This document shows, piece after piece, positions 4,288-32,879 of a DNA stretch of 33,026 nt. The DNA lies in contig CALVSZ010000003.1 of assembly GCA_944359705.1 (NCBI GenBank), positions 1-33,026 of the forward strand, in the 5' to 3' direction. The stretch's first letter is position 1, and the number at the start of each line of letters is the position of its first letter. The position numbers were made by a program, and so were the translations under genes. This DNA comes from an uncultured Bacilli bacterium (GTDB lineage: Bacteria > Bacillota_I > Bacilli_A > RF39 > UBA660). The notes below the pieces were generated by a model. It did no database searches, had not been told where the DNA came from, and saw nothing but the letters and a program-made list of their open reading frames with translations.

Positions 4288-5187
4288 TTATAATTTTTGA
4301 TTTAATGAATTATATTCTAGCTCACTAATCGGTAATCCTAAAGATAACCTCTTCTCTAAAGAATATTTAGAATATACCGTCTTAGTTAGTTTCTTAACTT
4401 TTTTATTATAAAAATCTAAATCTTTCCAAACGTCCTCTAATTCAACTCCAAATAAAAATATTTGCGCAGGACAAATACCAATCTGCCAAGGATTAGGATA
4501 TCCATTTAATTTTTCTTTTAATAAAGTTAAATATTCGTGGTTATATAAGTTAGGCACTTGATCTCTTACTGGAGTTAATAAATTAACTATAGTTTTATAA
4601 GAATTAATTTGTGCTAATCTTTCTGAAGGATTAACTTTATAATATTGTTGGTATAAATTTTTATATTTAGATAGCAACGCAGATAAATCATTTTCATCTA
4701 TCTTTCCAGTACTAATTGCCTTAAAAATTTCCCAATTATTTAAAGACTTTTCTAATAAGAAAGAAGCATTTATTAATTTAAAATAAATTGAATTATCATG
4801 CCTATTATCGCATAGCTTATTCTGATATACATGTTCTAATTCATGTAAAATAATTTGAACTATTAATAAATTTTTAAACATAAGACGTTCAAGTGAATTA
4901 AATAGATAATAATATTGATAATGTTTACTTTTACTTTCTATAATTCTTTGAATACTCCCACTATGTATTGAAATATCCATTGATGTAAGATTATATTCAG
5001 CTCCTATTATACCATTACTACTTTTAATTAATTTATCTGTGATATTTACTCTTTGAATATAATTATAAAGTCTCTTTTCCAAAACGACAATTTCAACTAA
5101 TCTATCAATAAATGTTTTATCGATAATTTTCCCATTAATAGAATAATCATAAACAAGTTTGAAAATATAAAATTCCATAAAATTCAC
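4288..5187 (-). CDS. Putative zinc metallopeptidase-like protein (HELEH)
   Basis: 299 residues, no signal peptide. A zincin motif HELEH stands at 115-119 at the end of a hydrophobic helix (LLIVQIILHELEHVYQ). A downstream acidic residue in NPSERLAQ (Glu189) could be the third zinc ligand, as in gluzincins; that assignment is inference. The rest (helical N-terminus, C-terminus with several YxxEY/KRLSLGLP segments) matches no family I recognise. RBS AAGGTGA. It is the last gene of an operon with a TasA-like membrane protein (5197-5697) and an unknown (5720-6166). Motif-level call only. Confidence 0.55.
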   Translation of the reverse strand: MNFMEFYIFKLVYDYSINGKIIDKTFIDRLVEIVVLEKRLYNYIQRVNITDKLIKSSNGIIGAEYNLTSMDISIHSGSIQRIIESKSKHYQYYYLFNSLERLMFKNLLIVQIILHELEHVYQNKLCDNRHDNSIYFKLINASFLLEKSLNNWEIFKAISTGKIDENDLSALLSKYKNLYQQYYKVNPSERLAQINSYKTIVNLLTPVRDQVPNLYNHEYLTLLKEKLNGYPNPWQIGICPAQIFLFGVELEDVWKDLDFYNKKVKKLTKTVYSKYSLEKRLSLGLPISELEYNSLNQKL

Positions 5188-5196
5188 CTTACATTA

Positions 5197-5697
5197 TTAA
5201 ACTAACACAAATGCATAAGACAAACTATTACCAATCATCATAGCGTTATCTTTTAGATAAATATTATATTCAAGCAATTCATAATCATCAATATTACTAT
5301 TATATAAAATATAGTAATTGTAATTAGAATCAGCATAATTATACAATGAGTCTAAATCATAAATTTTATTATTAAATAATATTTTTAATTCACTGTCTTT
5401 AACCGTAGAATCTCTATCTATTCGCAAATAAAGAGAATATTCACTACTTCTTTTACCACAATTAGATATCTCGATTTTATTACTAACTAAATTATTAATC
5501 GCATATTCATCAGTCATTGGGAACCATTTTTCTCCGTAATCAGTTAATTTAATAGCTAAATTATTATTTAAGGATTCAACAATTGATTTTTCTTTATTAT
5601 ATTTATCTTCTAAATTAGGGAAAACAAAAATAGCTACTAAAATTACCACTAAGCAAATAAAAATTTCATTAAATATTTTAAAAATTTCTTTATTCAT
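5197..5697 (-). CDS. Membrane-anchored TasA/camelysin-like protein
   Basis: 166 residues. One N-terminal hydrophobic segment (about 9-27) with a short basic/mixed cytoplasmic tail, then an all-beta-looking extracytoplasmic region. Three segments fit the pattern seen in SipW-dependent secreted proteins: FPMTDEYAI (59-67), ISNCGKRSSEYSLYL (77-91, like the family's NTGD..S.Y.IYL), and a C-terminal EYNIYLKDNA..IGNSLSYAFVLV stretch (like Y.L.LWL.E....GK.F...I.V). The ATG at 5697 is used because AAAAGGG lies 8 bases upstream. There is no clear cleavage site, so it may stay anchored. It lies one operon away from sipW. The family link is by pattern, not by close identity. Confidence 0.5.
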   Translation of the reverse strand: MNKEIFKIFNEIFICLVVILVAIFVFPNLEDKYNKEKSIVESLNNNLAIKLTDYGEKWFPMTDEYAINNLVSNKIEISNCGKRSSEYSLYLRIDRDSTVKDSELKILFNNKIYDLDSLYNYADSNYNYYILYNSNIDDYELLEYNIYLKDNAMMIGNSLSYAFVLV

Positions 5698-5719
5698 AAC
5701 CAAAACCCTTTTTTATATT

Positions 5720-6166
5720 TTAATTTATTTTTTTATTTTTTAATTTCTTTTCAAATATTTTTACTTCTTGATGATATAACAGTTGTTTTTTTACATCGTA
5801 GTATTTAGAAATTACTCCAACTCCTAATTCCTTTTCAATAAACGCTTTTGCTTTTTCTTTATTATAAACTAAACCAAGCCATTCATCATAAACGTAATCT
5901 CTATTTGTTAAATTAATTACGTCAGGAATAGTAATTGAGTCTGGCATTTCCTCTATAGTAAAAGCACTAAAACCTGCTAATCTAAAAAACAACTCTAAAT
6001 CACTTAAATTATGATTAACTATAAAATGAAATACTAAAAATGGCAAAGAATTAAAATTTCCTACTTTGTTATCTTTATTTTGAAAAACATATTTACTTGG
6101 TGCAATTAATTCACTCCAATTATCGCCATACATATCAAATCTAAAATAATTATCATTTTGAATCAT
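5720..6166 (-). CDS. Protein of unknown function
   Basis: 148 residues, soluble, no signal peptide or membrane helix, no motif I recognise. Acidic and aromatic-rich N-terminus (YFRFDMYGDNW), mixed alpha/beta centre, and a very basic C-terminus ending KIFEKKLKNKKIN, which could be a nucleic-acid or membrane-facing tail (inference). A GGGGGG ribosome binding site is 6 bases before ATG 6166; an upstream in-frame TTG at 6169 is too close to it. First gene of the operon, driven by a near-consensus promoter at 6199-6227. Confidence 0.7.
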   Translation of the reverse strand: MIQNDNYFRFDMYGDNWSELIAPSKYVFQNKDNKVGNFNSLPFLVFHFIVNHNLSDLELFFRLAGFSAFTIEEMPDSITIPDVINLTNRDYVYDEWLGLVYNKEKAKAFIEKELGVGVISKYYDVKKQLLYHQEVKIFEKKLKNKKIN

Positions 6167-6198
6167 CAAAATCCCCCCAGTACCATTAAGTGATTAAT

Positions 6199-6227
6199 AT
6201 ATTACCACAATTTATTATAATTGTCAA
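6199..6227 (-). promoter_or_regulatory. Sigma-A-type promoter for the 6166-4288 operon
   Basis: Minus strand TTGACA (6227-6222), 17-base spacer, TAATAT (6204-6199) with an extended -10 TGG just before it. About 33 bases before the ATG at 6166. Confidence 0.8.
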
Positions 6228-6271
6228 ATTTACAAGCATAATAAAAAGAATAATATAAAATTACTCTTTTA

Positions 6272-8371
6272 TTAATTGTCCATCCATGCATAAGCTTTTA
6301 TTGTACCAATGAATGCACTATTTTGTTCATTATTAGTCATCTTTTCATAATCTAACCACATATTTAATGACACATTTACAGTACTTTTAGGAGATATTAT
6401 ACCCTCATACAAGATAAATGTTGGCCTTTCAATTTTTAATCCACCTTCTAAAATATCATCAATAGTCCAAATATTATTATCTAAATATTTAATACCATTG
6501 TTAACGTATTCTACATCTACTTGATATTTTACAAATTTACTACTTAATTTTTTAACATTGTATTTGTCATAATCTTCTGTTTCTTCAATTACTAAACGAT
6601 ATTTTAATTCTTTATCAGTAGGATTAGTAATCTTTATATTATTTTCAATTTCATTTTCTTCATCAACATCATCCATGTCCACTACTAATCCGGAATCAAT
6701 TTTATCTATATTACCGTCTTCATCATATTTTATATTATCTTTATCCACTATAACAGAACTGCCATCAGGATATTCTACTAATACTTTATCGTTTTCATAT
6801 TCAGTTAAATTTGTGCCGTCAGGTAAATTTTTCTCAGTAGTATCATTTATAGGATCATTTTTTATTTTTTCAATATTACCATCTTTATCATAAACAATAT
6901 CTTCTTCTCTAACTAAATAACGATCTCCATCAGGTTCACACACTTCAGTAATACCATTTTCAAATTTCGTAATTAAAGTACCATCAGGGAGTGTTTTACT
7001 AGTATCAACATCTGATGTAGTTCCATCTATCTTATTTATATTTCCCGATTCATCATACTTTATATCATTATAATCATCAACATATATTTTAGTACCATCA
7101 GGATAATCTATTACAGCTTCACCATTTTCATAAATAGTAATAATTTCCTTAGAAGGTAGAGTCGTTTGTTTTTCAATATCATCAGTTTTTCCAAAAATAT
7201 CTTTAATATTACCATTATCATCATACTTTATATTAGAATTTTCATCAATATATTCACTACTTCCATCAGGATATTTTATAACAGCACTTCCATCATCAAA
7301 GATTAAAACAGTATCACCGTCTGGAGTTTTCTTTTCATAAATTTTTCTTCCTATATCATCTTTAATTATTTCTTTAATAATATTCTCTTTATCATTTAAA
7401 GAAATATCACCAGAACGTCTTACCATTATAGTTTCATTAGTACTAGTAATTATCATTGCACTTCCATCACTATAATATTTTATAACTGTTTTATCAGATA
7501 ACTTTATTTCGTTAATTTTAAAAGCTGCATTATTATTAGGAAAAGATACATTTTTTCCATCTATATTTATATCTTCCTCATTTCTAACAATATACTCAGT
7601 ATTATTCATAACTACCAATATAGTACCATCACTATAATAAGTTATTTTAGTATTGCCTTTATTATCGTGTTCATATTCAAAACTAATTCCACTAGGATTT
7701 ATTTTTACTATGTACTCATTATCTTTAGATATTAAGATATTACTTCCATCACGCACTAATAAATCTTCACCTTTTCTTTTTACAATAGCACACCCATCAC
7801 TATAATAAGTAATAATCGTTCCATCTTTTAAATTTTTAGTTTCAAAAATACTTACTTTCAAAGTTTTAGCATTCTTATATATTTTACCATCATCACTAAC
7901 TCCATAAGCATCATCAACAGATGAAACTCTAGTTATTGTACCATCATTATAAATTATCATTGCACTTTTATCACTAAAGAATTTTATAATACCAAATTGG
8001 GTAGTTATTTCTTTTACTTCAAATATAACCCCATCTTTTAATCCTATATTTCCATATTTTTGATATAACTTATATTTAGCATTATTATCAGTAAAAGGTT
8101 TTCGATTATTAACACTAATATTAGAACTACCGCCATCAAAATCTAAGATTAACGAAGTTAACAAGTCATATGGATTAGATGAACGATTTAGAGAAGAAAT
8201 AGCAAGATTTAGCCCTAAAATTAATATTAAAAGAATAAATATTAATAGCAAAATTAACATCTTTCTATTTTTAAATAATAACCATTTTTTATCTTTTCTT
8301 TCTTCTTCTATGACTATTTTATTTTTATTAGTATCAAATTTTTTTACTTTAAATTCTTTTGGTCTTCCCAT
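6272..8371 (-). CDS. Membrane-anchored beta-repeat surface protein with TasA-like C-terminus
   Basis: 699 residues. A basic cytoplasmic tail (1-37) and one membrane helix (about 38-60) suggest a type II anchor. From about 111 to 560 there are some eight repeats of about 56 residues. The first half uses the unit core YYSDGxAxI...VR (near 189, 245, 299; a weaker copy at 131); the second half uses LPDGT...YENG...YPDGS...IKYDxDGNI (starting near 349, 405, 461, 516). The alternation of PDG and NG turns with short strands resembles the Tcp10_C/CPAP G-box type of exposed beta-sheet repeat; this comparison is by pattern. The final 140 residues (ITNPTDKELKYRL..., MWLDYEKMTNNEQ, IGTIKAYAW) follow the TasA/camelysin pattern. 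RBS GGTGA; starts 8 bases after sipW, so it is co-transcribed with the peptidase. Likely a stalk or matrix component outside the membrane. Confidence 0.75.
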   Translation of the reverse strand: MGRPKEFKVKKFDTNKNKIVIEEERKDKKWLLFKNRKMLILLLIFILLILILGLNLAISSLNRSSNPYDLLTSLILDFDGGSSNISVNNRKPFTDNNAKYKLYQKYGNIGLKDGVIFEVKEITTQFGIIKFFSDKSAMIIYNDGTITRVSSVDDAYGVSDDGKIYKNAKTLKVSIFETKNLKDGTIITYYSDGCAIVKRKGEDLLVRDGSNILISKDNEYIVKINPSGISFEYEHDNKGNTKITYYSDGTILVVMNNTEYIVRNEEDINIDGKNVSFPNNNAAFKINEIKLSDKTVIKYYSDGSAMIITSTNETIMVRRSGDISLNDKENIIKEIIKDDIGRKIYEKKTPDGDTVLIFDDGSAVIKYPDGSSEYIDENSNIKYDDNGNIKDIFGKTDDIEKQTTLPSKEIITIYENGEAVIDYPDGTKIYVDDYNDIKYDESGNINKIDGTTSDVDTSKTLPDGTLITKFENGITEVCEPDGDRYLVREEDIVYDKDGNIEKIKNDPINDTTEKNLPDGTNLTEYENDKVLVEYPDGSSVIVDKDNIKYDEDGNIDKIDSGLVVDMDDVDEENEIENNIKITNPTDKELKYRLVIEETEDYDKYNVKKLSSKFVKYQVDVEYVNNGIKYLDNNIWTIDDILEGGLKIERPTFILYEGIISPKSTVNVSLNMWLDYEKMTNNEQNSAFIGTIKAYAWMDN
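6500..8040 (-). repeat. Tandem ~168-bp (56-aa) protein repeats, about eight units
   Basis: Coding repeats within the surface protein: two sub-families, an N-terminal YYSDG type and a C-terminal LPDGT/YPDGS type, with a shared period of about 55-58 residues. DNA identity between units is modest, so these are old protein repeats rather than recent DNA duplications. Boundaries are approximate. Confidence 0.7.
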
Positions 8372-8379
8372 TTTATCAC

Positions 8380-9009
8380 CTAACTTTTAATAAGATTTGC
8401 CTTTTTACCAACTTTTTTAAACAATTTCATAATATCATAAGATATAATTGCTAAACATGGTAATAAAATTACATAAATCCATCCACTCATATCTACTAAA
8501 AACTCTTGTAGGAATCCTAATTTAGGGATTTTAAAGATGACTTTTCCAATAACATTATAACTTGGTGCTAAAGTAGCATCTGCTGTATTATTATTATCAC
8601 CCTTTGTTTGAAATTCAATTTCTCCAGTAGTAGGATCTGCATATACCTCATTAATTCTATGAGTCACAGTAATATCAGGAAGTCTAGGATCACTAGATAT
8701 AAAAGTTATAATATCACCTTTTTTTAATTCACTAGCATCTACTTTTTTAGTAATTACGACATCTTTAATTTGAATTTCTGGAAGCATGCTTCCCGTTTCG
8801 ACAACATAAGCATTTAGTTTAGGAGGCGTATAATCCCCTTTCATTGCTCTTATTTTTATATCTCCAACATATATTAACAATGCTCCACCAATTAATAATA
8901 ACCATATAAAAATGGCATAAGATATAACACTTAAAATAAATTTTAATGGGTTTTGTTTTTCTTTAACAACTTTAACTTTATAATGTTTAACTTTAAACTT
9001 TTTAGTCAT
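8380..9009 (-). CDS. sipW: SipW-type signal peptidase I
   Basis: 209 residues. Membrane helix at about 24-48, extracytoplasmic catalytic domain, second helix at about 176-195. The nucleophile is Ser74 in ETGSMLPEI, and the general base is His117 in VTHRI, in place of the lysine of ordinary bacterial SPase I; Ser-His is the mark of the ER/SipW class. FQTKGDNNNTAD (133-144) is the conserved third box. In Bacillus SipW processes TasA and TapA for biofilm fibres; here the likely substrates are the TasA-like proteins encoded on either side. RBS GGGAGAGA. It has its own promoter at 9038-9066 and is followed after 8 bases by the beta-repeat protein. Confidence 0.92.
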   Translation of the reverse strand: MTKKFKVKHYKVKVVKEKQNPLKFILSVISYAIFIWLLLIGGALLIYVGDIKIRAMKGDYTPPKLNAYVVETGSMLPEIQIKDVVITKKVDASELKKGDIITFISSDPRLPDITVTHRINEVYADPTTGEIEFQTKGDNNNTADATLAPSYNVIGKVIFKIPKLGFLQEFLVDMSGWIYVILLPCLAIISYDIMKLFKKVGKKANLIKS

Positions 9010-9037
9010 AATGTCTCTCCCTTACTATTCTAAAATT

Positions 9038-9066
9038 ATTATACAATAAATATATTTAATATACAA
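9038..9066 (-). promoter_or_regulatory. Promoter for sipW
   Basis: Minus strand TTGTAT (9066-9061), 17-base spacer, TATAAT (9043-9038). The weak -35 follows directly on the T-tract of the upstream terminator. Confidence 0.55.
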
Positions 9067-9101
9067 GAAAAAAAAAGAAAACTATTCAATACTTTGAATA
9101 G
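9067..9101 (-). terminator. Intrinsic terminator after TasA-like gene 2
   Basis: Minus strand CTATTCAA pairs perfectly with TTGAATAG across the loop AGTA, followed by TTTTC and nine T. The stem encodes the last residues and stop codon of the upstream gene. Confidence 0.85.
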
Positions 9102-9657
9102 CATCAACTCCTAAATTAATCTTTAATTTTTTACCTTGTTGATCATCTTGATTAACCCCTGTTTCTTCTAAATACAACATTAATGTATATTTTTTAGTTT
9201 CCCCACTTGCTAAATGTTCACCACTACTTATATATACTTGACTAGCATCTGCAATAGCACCTGTAGTTAATTTATTTCCAAATTCGTCAAATAAAACATA
9301 TTTAATGGCATTTCTATCAAATTCATTGTTGATTATTTCCATATAAATATCAATTGTTTGATCTAAACTACCAGCACTTTCTACTTCAAAATTACTAACA
9401 TAACAATTTTCAATATCATCTATTGTATTAGGTTCATTTCTTGGAATAAATTTAGGATTATTGATAATTTGACCATCAATAAAATTAATAACTAAAGAAC
9501 CAGTATATATTTTAGTATCATCTTTATTCTGACTAGCAACTAAAGCAAAGTATGCAATTGTAACACTAGAGACCATAATTATTAAACTAATAATTAGAAT
9601 AACTAAATAAAAGATATCTTTAGAAGACATTTCCTTTTTCTTTTTTGCTAATTTCAT
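9082..9657 (-). CDS. TasA/camelysin-like SipW cargo protein 2
   Basis: 191 residues from the ATG at 9657, chosen because AGGTGA lies just upstream; an in-frame ATG further 5' would place codons over the preceding T-tract and lacks a ribosome binding site. Basic N-terminus, long hydrophobic segment about 15-40 with SVTIAYFALVAS at its end, like the SipW-dependent signal region. The rest is predicted beta: NCYVSNFEVESAGSLDQTIDIYMEI, then YTLMLYLEETGVNQDDQQGK near the C-terminus, the same C-terminal pattern as in the neighbouring cargo. Expected to be exported and cleaved by the SipW next door and to assemble outside the cell; assembly is inference. Confidence 0.75.
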   Translation of the reverse strand: MKLAKKKKEMSSKDIFYLVILIISLIIMVSSVTIAYFALVASQNKDDTKIYTGSLVINFIDGQIINNPKFIPRNEPNTIDDIENCYVSNFEVESAGSLDQTIDIYMEIINNEFDRNAIKYVLFDEFGNKLTTGAIADASQVYISSGEHLASGETKKYTLMLYLEETGVNQDDQQGKKLKINLGVDAIQSIE

Positions 9658-9681
9658 CCTATCACCTAGTATAATGGTATC

Positions 9682-9711
9682 AAAAAAAAAAGAAAAATGC
9701 AATATTTTTCT
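9682..9711 (-). terminator. Intrinsic terminator after TasA-like gene 1
   Basis: Minus strand AGAAAAAT pairs perfectly with ATTTTTCT across ATTGC, followed by a run of T (9690-9682). It separates the two cargo genes. No convincing promoter fits between it and the next start codon, so cargo gene 2 may depend on read-through. Confidence 0.75.
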
Positions 9712-9731
9712 CTTAAGGATTAAACTGATTA

Positions 9732-10379
9732 TTAAGCTGAAATTACAAAAGAAGATGTTAATTTATCGCCATGGATGGATTCAAACCCCATTATACAATT
9801 ATAACTCTTACCTTGATCTTCATTCTGACTAGCTTCTATTTCACTAATCCAAAATACTACATAATAACTTATTGTTTGAGGACTAGTGGTACCATCGCCA
9901 ATATTAGTAATGTAAGTACTACTATTCTTTTTAAAATACATAGTATCTCCAGAATTATGTGTTATAGTTATTATGTCAGTTATAGGAGTATACACATTAC
10001 CATTTTTTGTATAAATCATAAATTTTAAATTATCGCTTGTATAAGTACTATTAGAAGTTCTAATAAATCCATGTAAATCTAATGGTAATCCATTGTTTAC
10101 AACATCTAATTTATATAAACTGCAGACTTCTTGTCCATCATTATCCATACACTGATTACTAGATTTACTTATTAACGTGGTTATTAAATCGTCTTTTACT
10201 GGCATTAAGGAAGATGATTTTTTTATTTCATATACTTCTACCCCAAAATTAGCATTATAAGTACTTCCTACTATATTGTTATTCCGAGTAGAAGCATTAA
10301 AAAATGAAAATGTTGTTCCAAAAACAACTGCACATATAATTAATACTATAAGAATTGCTAAAAAAATACTTTTTTTCAA
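9732..10379 (-). CDS. TasA/camelysin-like SipW cargo protein 1
   Basis: 215 residues. TTG start at 10379 with GGTGATAGA before it. Signal-like N-terminus: MKKS, hydrophobic core about 5-21, then GTTFSFFNAS, close to the GTTYAFF-type segment after which SipW substrates are cut. The mature part contains a cysteine pair in NQCMDNDGQEVCSLY, a VVNNGLPLDLHGFI strand region, and a C-terminal YYVVFWISEIEASQNEDQGK motif shared with the other SipW-cluster proteins. Probably a secreted fibre subunit or its accessory. First gene of the cluster, with a promoter at 10405-10433. Confidence 0.75.
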   Translation of the reverse strand: MKKSIFLAILIVLIICAVVFGTTFSFFNASTRNNNIVGSTYNANFGVEVYEIKKSSSLMPVKDDLITTLISKSSNQCMDNDGQEVCSLYKLDVVNNGLPLDLHGFIRTSNSTYTSDNLKFMIYTKNGNVYTPITDIITITHNSGDTMYFKKNSSTYITNIGDGTTSPQTISYYVVFWISEIEASQNEDQGKSYNCIMGFESIHGDKLTSSFVISA

Positions 10380-28291: not shown

Positions 28292-28303
28292 TTAGTTATC
28301 CTT
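28270..28303 (-). terminator. Intrinsic terminator after paralog 3
   Basis: Minus strand AAGGATAA pairs with TTGTCCTT (8 bp, one T-G) across a 4-base loop that holds the end of the stop codon context, followed by more T, C and eight T. Confidence 0.85.
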
Positions 28304-29929
28304 GTTTCTTACTAGTTTTTTTGCTTCATAATGTTCTTCAATTTCGTTAAAATTCTCTAAATATTCTTTTGCGTGCATTAATAAATAACTATACTGATTA
28401 TATAAATTATAAAACTCTTTCTTTATAGAGTCATCTGCTGTTACATGAGAATCAAATATTTTTTTTGCTAATTCTATTTTTTCTATAGCATCTTCTATTT
28501 CTTTAATATTATTTTTATATTGTTTATAAATTGAGGGATTTATTGGACAACCTCCAAATAACTCTTTTAAATTGTAAAGAATTCCAGGAGTAAGTCCATT
28601 TTTCTTAGAAAAATATATTTCTGATCCCCAAACATATGCAACTTCATTAAGTAAAACAAAGGCACTAATTAGTAAAGAATAATCTATAGAATCAAATTTT
28701 TCATATTCTTCTTTATCATTAATTTCAGTAATTACCACTTCACTATATTCAGAACTAGTTGTATCTTTACCATATGACATTAAATTAATATCGTATGGCA
28801 TATTATCTAAATTTAAATCTAGATAATCTTTAATATCAGAAAGTTCTATATCACTAACATCATATGTAGATACTGTCCTTAGTCTATTAAATACTTTACT
28901 ATATACATTAATTTTAGTACTATTTGTCGGATTACTAGATACTTCTACTTCTATTGGTTTTTCTTTTGTACCATAATCACTAGAATATGATTTTTCTATT
29001 CCTTTGTAAACTTTATCTATTGCATGTTTTTTTAAACCACCACTAGCTAAAATAGTAGCTCCTGTCATAAGACTTATAGATAATATAATTGACCATACTC
29101 GCATACGAATATACTTTTTGGTTTTATTCAAATTGTCTTTTAGATTTTCTAAATGTTCTTTTTTATATCCTATGTTTTCTTGATATGAATCAATCATATT
29201 TTTGTTATTTTCATAACGTTTTAATAAATAATCAAGTCTTCCATAAATACTTTTTTTATATTTTTTTTCATTTTGTTCATATCTTAATATCAATTTTAAA
29301 TTATCTAAACTATAATAATCTTCTACATTATTAATATTAATATTTAATAATGCTGTGCTGTAAGTATCGTCAAATTCATCCTTTACTAGCTTTTTAAATT
29401 TGGCATATAAGATAACAAAATCTTCTTTCATGAAATTACCTATAAATTGTTTACTTGAATTTTTGTCACTAAAATAATCAAATAAACTTGTTTCATTGGT
29501 ATATAAAACCTCTTTTTTCATAAAATTATAAATTATACAATAAATTTTAGATAATATTTGATTTTCAATAATACCATCAATATTTTCTAACCAACTTAAG
29601 TTATTAAAGTTATTAATTATTTGTTTTACAGCCACTTTTGTGTGTTCTTCTAGTTTTTCGACATCTTTTTGTCCATAAAATTCAAGTTCTATCTTTTCCA
29701 AAACTTGTAGTATACTTAATAATTGTTCATAATTAAATAACTCAGTTTCCAATGCAGTCAATTGGTCTTCACTTATTTGGTTTTCATATAATTTTTCAAT
29801 ATCTAATACAGTTTTATATTTTTTGTATAAACTATCTTTATCAATTCCATAATAATAAAATTCTTCAAGTTTTTTACATGCAATAGTAATTCTTTGCTTT
29901 AAAGCTTCCATTTTTTTTATTTCATCCAT
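28292..29929 (-). CDS. Two-helix membrane protein, tandem paralog 3
   Basis: 545 residues from ATG 29929; a GTG at 29938 lies only 2 bases from GGGG and is less likely. Layout: about 275 mostly helical cytoplasmic residues, membrane helix at about 278-298, about 115 extracytoplasmic residues, helix at about 416-436, and a helical cytoplasmic C-terminus of about 100. The outside domain carries the shared signature YKGI...Y, then TYDVSDIELSDIKDYLDLNL (355 on), then SEYSEVVITEI. The same order occurs in the two upstream genes. Its own promoter at 29963-29990 allows independent expression. No known family is recognised; role unknown. Confidence 0.75.
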   Translation of the reverse strand: MDEIKKMEALKQRITIACKKLEEFYYYGIDKDSLYKKYKTVLDIEKLYENQISEDQLTALETELFNYEQLLSILQVLEKIELEFYGQKDVEKLEEHTKVAVKQIINNFNNLSWLENIDGIIENQILSKIYCIIYNFMKKEVLYTNETSLFDYFSDKNSSKQFIGNFMKEDFVILYAKFKKLVKDEFDDTYSTALLNININNVEDYYSLDNLKLILRYEQNEKKYKKSIYGRLDYLLKRYENNKNMIDSYQENIGYKKEHLENLKDNLNKTKKYIRMRVWSIILSISLMTGATILASGGLKKHAIDKVYKGIEKSYSSDYGTKEKPIEVEVSSNPTNSTKINVYSKVFNRLRTVSTYDVSDIELSDIKDYLDLNLDNMPYDINLMSYGKDTTSSEYSEVVITEINDKEEYEKFDSIDYSLLISAFVLLNEVAYVWGSEIYFSKKNGLTPGILYNLKELFGGCPINPSIYKQYKNNIKEIEDAIEKIELAKKIFDSHVTADDSIKKEFYNLYNQYSYLLMHAKEYLENFNEIEEHYEAKKLVRNKDN

Positions 29930-29962
29930 TTTTACCACTACCCCACATGAAATATGCTACTT

Positions 29963-29990
29963 ATATTACCATAAAAATTAAATATGTCAA
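29963..29990 (-). promoter_or_regulatory. Promoter for paralog 3
   Basis: Minus strand TTGACA (29990-29985), 16-base spacer, TAATAT (29968-29963) preceded by TGG. Confidence 0.7.
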
Positions 29991-30008
29991 TTTTTTATCC
30001 AAAGAAAA

Positions 30009-31232
30009 CTACTTAAATATATATTTTCTTATAATTGAATTGGATTTTATTGATTCAACTCTATTTAATAAATCTTGGGAACCATCTATTACTTTTCCAT
30101 ATCTTTGATATAATTGATAAAATTCAAGTAAATTTTTTTCAAAATCTAAAATTAATTTATTCTTTTCTACATCTAAATTACTAATATCATCTATTAAATT
30201 TAATATATTTTCTTTCATTTTTTCTTTTTCTTCAAAGAAATTTCTTTTTTTGAACAAAGAAATTAAATTTAAAGAAATACCTAAACATAATTTTTTATAA
30301 TCATTTTGTTTTTCTTTATGACTAGAAACAATAATTAAAAATAATTCTAGTAAAAGCATACAACCAAGTTGAATTAAATAATATAAAAAATTATTTAGCT
30401 TTGGTATTATAGTACTTTTATCAATTTCTATTTTTACAACATCACTATATTGTTGATAGGGAGTTTTACTTATATAATCTACTTTTTTTATACTATATGT
30501 AAAACTTGATAAATCAATACCTAAATAATCTTCTATATCACCATAATAATAATCAGACACATCATATGATGAAAGTATTCTACTTTTTTTTAGGTCAAAT
30601 AATCCCGTTTTATATACTTCACTATAAGTATTTATATATGTGCTATTTTTATCATTTAAATCAAAAGATGTAATCTTCTCTTTTGTGGAATTATCTAAAG
30701 AAGAATATATGGTTATTTTCCCATTATAAAAGTCATTTGTACAAATTTTCTTGCTATAACTTCCTATACCTAACCATATTGACCCATATATCCCTAAAGT
30801 CAAAAAAATAGATATAATTCTATTTTTTATTTCTTTTGAACATAAAAATTTACTTTGATAAGCCTCATTTAAAACTTTCATAAAATCTTTTCTAGAATTA
30901 ATATTATGATTTAATGATGATAAATATAATTCTAGTTCACCTACAATATTATCTAACTCATTTTTTGCTAACTTAATATAATAATTATTATACTTTGACA
31001 GTAATTTTAATAATTCAACGTCAATATAATTTATATCTTTTCTAACTTCTTCTAAACTATATAACATTATTTTTATTTCTTCATCATTATTTTCATACCC
31101 AAATATCTCTAGTATATCTAATAATTCATCTATAAAACTAATACATAATTTTTTTTCTAGTATAGTCTCTTCATTTAATTTGTTTTTTAAGTCAATTATC
31201 AAATTATATGCTAAATCATAATTACTAGCCAT
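30009..31232 (-). CDS. Two-helix membrane protein, tandem paralog 2
   Basis: 407 residues from ATG 31232 (AGGAGG 10 bases upstream; the in-frame ATG at 31259 has none). Same layout as its neighbours but the first cytoplasmic part is about 130 residues shorter: helical N-terminus, membrane helix at about 138-158, extracytoplasmic domain with SYDVSDYYYGDIEDYLGIDL (222 on) and QQYSDVVKIEID, second helix at about 280-303, helical C-terminus. It lies 45 bases after paralog 1 and is probably on the same transcript. Possible internal deletion relative to the others, or a distinct sub-type. Confidence 0.75.
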   Translation of the reverse strand: MASNYDLAYNLIIDLKNKLNEETILEKKLCISFIDELLDILEIFGYENNDEEIKIMLYSLEEVRKDINYIDVELLKLLSKYNNYYIKLAKNELDNIVGELELYLSSLNHNINSRKDFMKVLNEAYQSKFLCSKEIKNRIISIFLTLGIYGSIWLGIGSYSKKICTNDFYNGKITIYSSLDNSTKEKITSFDLNDKNSTYINTYSEVYKTGLFDLKKSRILSSYDVSDYYYGDIEDYLGIDLSSFTYSIKKVDYISKTPYQQYSDVVKIEIDKSTIIPKLNNFLYYLIQLGCMLLLELFLIIVSSHKEKQNDYKKLCLGISLNLISLFKKRNFFEEKEKMKENILNLIDDISNLDVEKNKLILDFEKNLLEFYQLYQRYGKVIDGSQDLLNRVESIKSNSIIRKYIFK

Positions 31233-31277
31233 AATATAAAAACCTCCTAAAATATTCATTAATAGGAAAAGAAATTA

Positions 31278-32879
31278 TTACTTATTTTCTTTTAATAATT
31301 TTTTAGAAAAAACTTTTGATGTATCTTCCAAATTGGCTTCTAGTAATAATTTATCTTTATTGTCTAATAAATACAAATATTGATAATACAATTTTTTAAA
31401 TTCTTCTTTTAATTTTAAATCTCTTTCCAATAAATAATTAAAAGTTTCATCTAAAACTTCAATATTAGTTAAAATTAAATCTTCTTTTTTTAAATATTTA
31501 TTCGTTAATTGAATTATATTTAAACCTGTAGCATTTCTAGCTAATAATGAACATATGTTGTAAAAAACTCCTAAAGTAATTACTGGTCTATTCTTCGCTT
31601 TTCGTCTTGCTAAAATTGAATATACTGTAAAAGAAGGTTCTAAAACTCCTAAAAGAATAAGTATATAAATAAAGAATGATAAATAAAAACTGTTTTCATC
31701 TATAACTTCATAAACATTTGTGGTATCAATTTGCGTATCAACTATTTCACTATATTCTAAATCTGATTCACCCTTTATATAAAAAGACGAAGCGTAATCA
31801 GATTTTTTACTATATTCACTTAAATTTAACATATCATAATCTTCTATATTATCCAAATTAGCTGATGAAACATCATAAGTTGTATAAGATCTACGTCCAT
31901 CTATTATTGGTCCATATTCATTAACCACAGTATTAGAAACGGGATTATCAGAAACATTAAATAATTTAACTTCTTCTCTATTACCATAAATATTTGAATA
32001 AGAATAAACATTACCCTTATAACATTTTTTTAAATTGTTTTTCTCTGCCACATTTTTAGATAAAACCACACCACCAAAGAGAATTCCAAAGCTCAAAGAA
32101 ATTGATGTTAATCTTACTAATAATTCTTTTTTCTTTTTGTTAAGTTTTCTTTTTATAATATCTAATTTTTTGACAACTAATTCTTTTTCTGCCAAATGTT
32201 CTTGTATTTTATTATCATTAATTTTTATAGAATTAATAATACGATGTGCCTCTTGATTTACTTCTTCTTTTATCTCAGAATCCCCAAAATATTCAATCAA
32301 TTCCTTAATTACTTCCATTTTCTTTTCTTCATATTCATTTCTTAAATCTGAATAATTAATAATATTAACAGCTTCATCTCCAAATATATGTTGATTAGCT
32401 TTAATATTGTCTAATTCATCTTTAATGGATGCTACAAAATACTTTTTATTAATATCGCTATTTTCAAAATATAACCATATTTTACTTTTTTTACCTTGAA
32501 CAAACTCTTCAACCATAATATCAAAAATTACTTTATAAATTCTCTTAGCGATGTAATTATTATCTTCCCAAACATTATAATATTCCTTAGTATCTTCTAT
32601 AATTTCTAAAATTTTAGTTATATTTTCATCCAATTTATAACTAGGAAAAGTCATAAGTTCATTAGATGTTTTATTACATATCATTAGACATTCAACAATT
32701 TTTTCATAAATGCATATTAAATTATTTAATTCGTCTACCTTATCTCGATATAAATATTCTTCATCTTCTATAAATATTTCATTTAACTTACTTTCTAAAT
32801 AATTTACATTTACATTTTTTAATCTAAGTGAATTTATTTTTTGTTTTATATCAATTAATTCATATATTCTACTATTCAT
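31278..32879 (-). CDS. Two-helix membrane protein, tandem paralog 1
   Basis: 533 residues. Helical, charged cytoplasmic N-terminus (1-253), ending in a very basic KRKLNKKKKELL before membrane helix 254-275; extracytoplasmic domain with CYKGNVYSYSN, TTYDVSSANLDNIEDYDMLNL (333 on) and LEYSEIVDTQID; second helix at about 398-423; helical C-terminus. GGGGGGAT ribosome binding site. First of the three paralogs, with a promoter at 32909-32937. Topology (both ends inside) follows from the positive residues flanking the helices; it is prediction. Confidence 0.75.
   Translation of the reverse strand: MNSRIYELIDIKQKINSLRLKNVNVNYLESKLNEIFIEDEEYLYRDKVDELNNLICIYEKIVECLMICNKTSNELMTFPSYKLDENITKILEIIEDTKEYYNVWEDNNYIAKRIYKVIFDIMVEEFVQGKKSKIWLYFENSDINKKYFVASIKDELDNIKANQHIFGDEAVNIINYSDLRNEYEEKKMEVIKELIEYFGDSEIKEEVNQEAHRIINSIKINDNKIQEHLAEKELVVKKLDIIKRKLNKKKKELLVRLTSISLSFGILFGGVVLSKNVAEKNNLKKCYKGNVYSYSNIYGNREEVKLFNVSDNPVSNTVVNEYGPIIDGRRSYTTYDVSSANLDNIEDYDMLNLSEYSKKSDYASSFYIKGESDLEYSEIVDTQIDTTNVYEVIDENSFYLSFFIYILILLGVLEPSFTVYSILARRKAKNRPVITLGVFYNICSLLARNATGLNIIQLTNKYLKKEDLILTNIEVLDETFNYLLERDLKLKEEFKKLYYQYLYLLDNKDKLLLEANLEDTSKVFSKKLLKENK

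Follow-up and report, generated by a model that had tools for sequence, protein, structure and literature searches.

Introduction

To our knowledge, little is understood of the way in which TasA-type fibres are attached to the cell, and this holds even for Bacillus. TasA of B. subtilis polymerises by means of donor strands at its N-terminus, the first of which is believed to come from TapA (PMC9674648, PMC10151520). We analyzed a stretch of DNA of 33,026 nucleotides, here called the window, which is one contig of a genome of 1.23 Mb with a G+C content of roughly 24% and a completeness of 92%. The window codes for a SipW signal peptidase, three small TasA-like proteins (TasA1, TasA2 and TasA3) and a large anchored protein that we call the stalk protein. 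We give a probability of about 0.6 to the reading that these genes form a locus for extracellular fibres of the SipW/TasA type, the membrane base of which is stalked.

The gene set and its surroundings

The original prediction placed one SipW, two small TasA-like proteins, a large anchored repeat protein and a further TasA-like membrane protein in this part of the window. All of these genes were found on the minus strand where they had been placed (Table 1). The first four genes, TasA1 to the stalk gene, are separated by short intergenic gaps, and the gap between SipW and the stalk gene is 8 bp. Translation of TasA2 probably begins not at the listed start but at an internal ATG at about 9657, which gives a protein of 191 residues.

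Table 1. Positions of the genes and of the parts of the stalk protein in the window
Feature	Positions	Strand	Description
TasA1	9732..10379	-	215 aa, TasA-like, SipW-type signal peptide; first gene of the conserved set
TasA2	9082..9702	-	206 aa as listed, TasA-like; matched by Foldseek (8aur_A) and camelysin profile
SipW	8380..9009	-	ER-type (Ser/His) signal peptidase; Ser74, His117
Stalk protein	6272..8371	-	699 aa; N-terminus in the cytosol, then signal anchor, 8 beta-repeats and TasA-like domain at the C-terminus
Stalk transmembrane anchor	8195..8266	-	aa 36-59; not followed by a SipW-type cleavage motif
Stalk beta-repeat region	6698..8029	-	aa 115-558; period of about 56 aa, 8 units, Pfam Tcp10_C
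Stalk C-terminal TasA-like domain	6281..6640	-	aa 578-697; AlphaFold and profile comparison
149-aa ORF	5720..6169	-	between stalk and TasA3
TasA3	5197..5703	-	168 aa, TasA-like; N-terminal membrane anchor that appears to be uncleaved; position downstream of stalk conserved

The 149-aa ORF was rejected as a part of the system, because one relative (L042) has a 377-aa ORF in its place and others lack it. The 377-aa ORF (L042:10278-11411) has no Pfam match and by eye resembles a nuclease-type mobile gene. The interval between the stalk gene and TasA3 is thus a spot prone to insertion of unrelated ORFs. Adjoining TasA3 is a gene for a 299-aa protein (window 4288-5187) with an HELEH motif like that of zinc peptidases; the protein has no significant family match, and its position is not kept in relatives. 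At window 28292-32879 lie three tandem genes for similar-looking membrane proteins of 548, 416 and 533 aa. These have two hydrophobic segments, and none of them is convincingly matched by a Pfam family.

Scans for promoters and terminators gave results no better than shuffled sequences. A phage origin was rejected, since no phage record matched the locus and the viral structures that were found were low-TM matches to the repeats. A sortase-built pilus was also rejected, since the gene set does not include a sortase; the genome has four sortase matches, all of them on other contigs.

SipW and its substrates

SipW matched the NCBIfam model TIGR02228 (E=1.8e-27), and it matched the SigPepSipWBacil model with E=1.3e-22, which is below the cut-off of that model. 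In an alignment with nine relatives, Ser74, His117, Asp138 and Asp144 were invariant, and the residue pattern thus fits an ER-type Ser/His enzyme (PMC10269814). Judged from these sequence features, the identification of SipW is firm. The SipWs of L046 and L048 (415 and 510 aa) have a long N-terminal extension, which is acidic in L046.

The aromatic end that is typical of SipW-type signals, A-[YF]-F or similar, follows the hydrophobic core in every relative of TasA1 and TasA2 examined. In the window it is S-F-F in TasA1 (10299-10307), the relatives of which have A-Y-F, and A-Y-F in TasA2 (9547-9555). The model of SipW-type signals, TIGR04088, matched TasA1 weakly (E=0.077). When we scanned for the motif with a regular expression, no such end was found after the membrane core in any of the 18 aligned stalk proteins or the six TasA3 relatives; two matches in stalk proteins fall inside the membrane core. 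This split between the two signal types is consistent across distant relatives. Thus, the stalk protein and TasA3 look like uncleaved membrane anchors.

SipW of the window is the only SipW-type peptidase that was found in the source genome. The genome codes for SipW-signal proteins on other contigs as well. Contig C2 has a tandem of three TasA-like genes whose products carry SipW-type signals (L105:3701-5900), and two larger proteins are coded on contigs C44 and C30. For this reason SipW of the window probably serves distant loci as well. The TasA-like triplet on C2 has no SipW of its own and lies beside two ABC-transporter genes. The larger proteins, at L104:5010-6359 and L106:4070-5554, have a camelysin-like N-terminal signal region, and the former carries DUF6273 (E=4.6e-6).

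Two short cytosolic N-terminal segments are conserved across distant relatives, namely (K/R)HYxVK(I/V)(V/I)K in SipW and FxVK...IxxEEE in the stalk protein, the latter even in the form without repeats. These segments are possibly a site of contact.

Relation of the small proteins to TasA

TasA2 showed a weak match to the Pfam family Peptidase_M73, which covers camelysin and TasA (13.5 bits against a gathering score of 22.5, E=0.063). We compared profiles after removal of the signal peptides, using unrelated pairs and column shuffles as controls. TasA1 matched TasA2 with 97.6% and TasA2 matched the camelysins with 95.8%, and the values were 52% for TasA3 against the C-terminal domain of the stalk protein, 40% for that domain against the camelysins, and 35% for TasA3 against the camelysins. 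Each of these five scores exceeded every column shuffle. TasA1 against the camelysins gave 34%, and the unrelated control pairs gave at most 0.5%. When TasA1 and TasA2 were compared directly with TasA3 and the stalk protein, nothing, or barely anything, rose above the shuffles. The claim that the four proteins are related can thus be held firmly for TasA1 and TasA2, and only moderately for TasA3 and the stalk protein.

In the AlphaFold model of TasA2, the domain has eight strands and a pLDDT of about 88. The best match of this model in the PDB was the B. subtilis TasA fibre (8aur, E=1.2e-5 in Foldseek), and the next match had an E value of 6e-4. The TM-scores are modest (0.42/0.38), and we therefore read the relation predicted by the model as kinship at the level of the fold. 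The original prediction had made its reading depend on a resemblance to the TasA/camelysin fold, and this match, together with that of SipW, bears out the assignment to the SipW/TasA type. Lower Foldseek matches included donor-strand-bound FimG and a filament of the archaeon Sulfolobus acidocaldarius (0406). A segment of low confidence that follows the signal in the TasA2 model could be such a donor strand. When the profiles of TasA1 and TasA2 were searched against PDB sequences, no useful match came up.

Structure of the stalk protein

The AlphaFold model of the stalk protein (pLDDT 80.5) consists of a cytosolic segment, a membrane helix, the repeat region and a beta-domain at residues 578-696. 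The repeat region is modelled as all-beta, with pLDDT values mostly of 75-94, and its best period of 56 residues gave a self-identity of 0.175, compared with a maximum of 0.142 in 500 shuffles. The Pfam family Tcp10_C, that is, the TCP or G-box repeat, was matched with E=9e-17 (60.8 bits against a gathering cut-off of 36), and a search of PDB sequences found CPAP (4bxq, E=4e-4). Foldseek also gave a local match to CPAP (4bxr, E=2e-7), with a TM-score below 0.2. In CPAP, the TCP domain stands free as a sheet of a single layer, which has PDG turns and about 20 strands, and its repeats form a surface that binds a proline motif as ligand (PMC3776556). If the repeats of the stalk protein likewise form a single sheet, its length would be at most roughly 22 nm, as calculated from about 47 modelled strands of 4.7 Å each.

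Closed beta-propellers were the top Foldseek matches, and these too were local. However, the TM-scores to designed propellers were 0.08-0.14 and the number of repeats varies from about three to eight, so that a closed propeller is unlikely. Matches of the stalk protein to the Pfam families aRib and Myosin_N scored below the cut-offs of these families and were rejected. In the Foldseek search with the whole stalk protein, matches to the repeats dominated and no TasA match was listed. A literature search for the MiiA motif gave no relevant paper.

The related stalk proteins have fewer units: about seven in some, and six, four to five or only three to four in others. One relative (L070) is a protein of 236 aa with no repeats at all, although it keeps the cytosolic motif, the anchor and the TasA-like head, and its gene lies between those of SipW and TasA3. 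Since their number varies in this way, the repeats look like an adjustable spacer.

Conservation and distribution of the locus

SipW lies directly upstream of the stalk gene on the same strand in the window, in all of those related loci whose upstream DNA was covered (19 of 20), and in L070; the gaps are from -4 to 27 bp. The conserved gene order that the original prediction had called for is thus present. The genes farther out mostly differ between lineages and are shared by close relatives. TasA3 follows the stalk gene in the window and in L039, L040, L041, L042, L047, L052 and L070; in L039 (10171-10431) it has only 86 aa, owing to a frameshift, decay or an assembly error. No TasA1 or TasA2 was found beside the stalk gene in L047, L049-L053 and L055-L058. 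Taken together, the sequence comparisons indicate that the locus is real and conserved.

The related loci come from metagenome genomes of uncultured Bacilli, 'Tenericutes' and Erysipelotrichaceae, several of which have sample names from the gut (goat jejunum and colon). The stalk protein is rare: about 8 of 145 genomes of the family gave strong matches, and a sample of 392 genomes of the phylum gave only weak partial matches beyond the family. SipW, in contrast, is common in the family (121 of 141 genomes) and usually lies beside TasA-like substrates. The proposal of a distinct machine was therefore too strong.

A short anchored TasA-like protein often adjoins SipW in the family (for example in L070, L073 and L077). 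It resembles the stalk protein in its gene position, its N-terminal membrane segment and its TasA-like C-terminal domain, and differs in that it has no repeats. In the tree, the SipWs found with stalk proteins and that of L070 form one clade (support 96/95). The simplest reading of these sequences would be that the anchored protein either gained the repeats by insertion or lost them; the tree gives no direction. In lineages with short stalks, a SipW-signal protein of 412-761 aa is coded directly after the stalk protein. Several of these proteins have a camelysin-like N-terminal part, and two that were scanned carry a LamG lectin-like domain (E=3.7e-9 and 3.7e-11), which suggests that they are a putative adhesive cargo.

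Proposed function and alternative explanations

We propose that the compact gene set of this gut bacterium, the genome of which is tiny, probably builds TasA-like surface fibres in the following way. SipW would remove the signal peptides from TasA1 and TasA2, and it probably does so for TasA-like proteins from other loci of the genome too. Once free, TasA1 and TasA2 would be expected to form polymers outside the cell through donor-strand exchange, in the manner of TasA. The stalk protein and TasA3 have anchors that are not sites for SipW and would for this reason stay membrane-bound. On its rod of beta-repeats the stalk protein would hold its TasA-like head, probably at the level of the cell wall or farther out, where the head may join the end of the fibre and anchor or nucleate it; TapA helps with such a role in B. 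subtilis. As the base of the fibre, the strongest candidate is the head of the stalk protein or TasA3. The base in B. subtilis gives a strand from a free N-terminus, and a C-terminal head lacks one, so that a different geometry of the join would be needed; a C-terminal head on a rod would accept a strand more easily than give one. Of the predicted role of the 699-aa protein as anchor or stalk, its place in the membrane and its fitness as a base are retained, and the anchoring of fibres is what we infer. As a more tentative proposal, the adjustable TCP/G-box rod between anchor and head may set the height at which the fibre is seeded and held, with neither TapA nor a sortase.

Some of our observations count against the stalk protein as fibre base, namely the moderate match of its head to the camelysins, the Foldseek search with the whole stalk protein in which TasA was not listed, and the loci that have a stalk protein but no adjacent TasA1 or TasA2. 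Since the stalk protein and SipW occur in many relatives with no TasA1 or TasA2 beside them, the stalk protein might instead be a working surface protein, that is, a tethered adhesin or receptor with a ligand-binding TasA-like head, with TasA1 and TasA2 secreted separately and no fibre on the stalk. The head domain occurs on many large proteins of the bacterial family, and the ligand binding of the CPAP repeats would also agree with such a role. However, the stalk gene is fixed beside SipW although its product has no SipW site, most loci without TasA1 and TasA2 have another SipW-signal or TasA-like protein after the stalk protein, and the head belongs to a fold class that self-associates. We consider an adhesin or receptor unlikely.

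A somewhat smaller chance is given to the idea that the stalk protein and TasA3 are membrane chaperones, which would keep SipW close to its substrates and pass on the folded subunits while staying outside the fibre. The conserved cytosolic segments of SipW and the stalk protein and the strict adjacency of their genes would suit such helpers, and CapP and TapA show that helpers of this kind exist, but a chaperone at the membrane needs no long beta-rod of variable length. It is very improbable that the TasA-like proteins are surface metallopeptidases like camelysin. The related Pfam family is indeed named for the camelysin metallo-endopeptidase; however, the Pfam matches do not reach the gathering score, and among solved structures the nearest is that of a structural fibre protein.

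The fibre locus with a stalked base is the reading that we prefer, and it would point to TasA-like surface structures in uncultured gut Bacilli with small genomes, of which we found no published account in the literature searched. The relatives with none to eight repeats offer a natural series in which the proposed spacer between the membrane and the fibre-binding domain changes while the rest is constant. The stalk protein also provides a bacterial setting for a repeat that is otherwise described in centriole proteins.

Comparison with known systems

In this locus, as in the tapA-sipW-tasA operon of B. subtilis, an ER-type SipW is coded next to substrates that have the TasA fold and signal peptides of the SipW type. 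The locus differs in that it has two TasA-like subunits, the sequences of which score below the Pfam gathering score, and in that an anchored repeat protein and TasA3 are present instead of TapA. The absence of TapA, which had been predicted, agrees with our search of the 92%-complete genome, in which the best score of the TapA (YqxM) model TIGR04087 was 11.7 bits against a cut-off of 80, while the B. subtilis control was found. The TasA-CalY-CapP system of Bacillus cereus and the sipW-bsaABC system of Clostridium perfringens also combine SipW with several related secreted subunits and a helper, and they too have no dedicated sortase; their helper is of the CapP or BsaB/BsaC type, whereas in the window it would be an anchored beta-repeat protein with a TasA-like head. 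The repeats themselves resemble the TCP (G-box) domain of CPAP/SAS-4 in having beta-hairpins with xDG turns. Unlike that domain, they are bacterial and extracellular, they lie between a membrane anchor and a TasA-like domain, and their period of 56 residues corresponds to about two hairpins and a short turn. The distinct feature of this locus is the beta-repeat insert in the anchored TasA-like protein adjacent to SipW.
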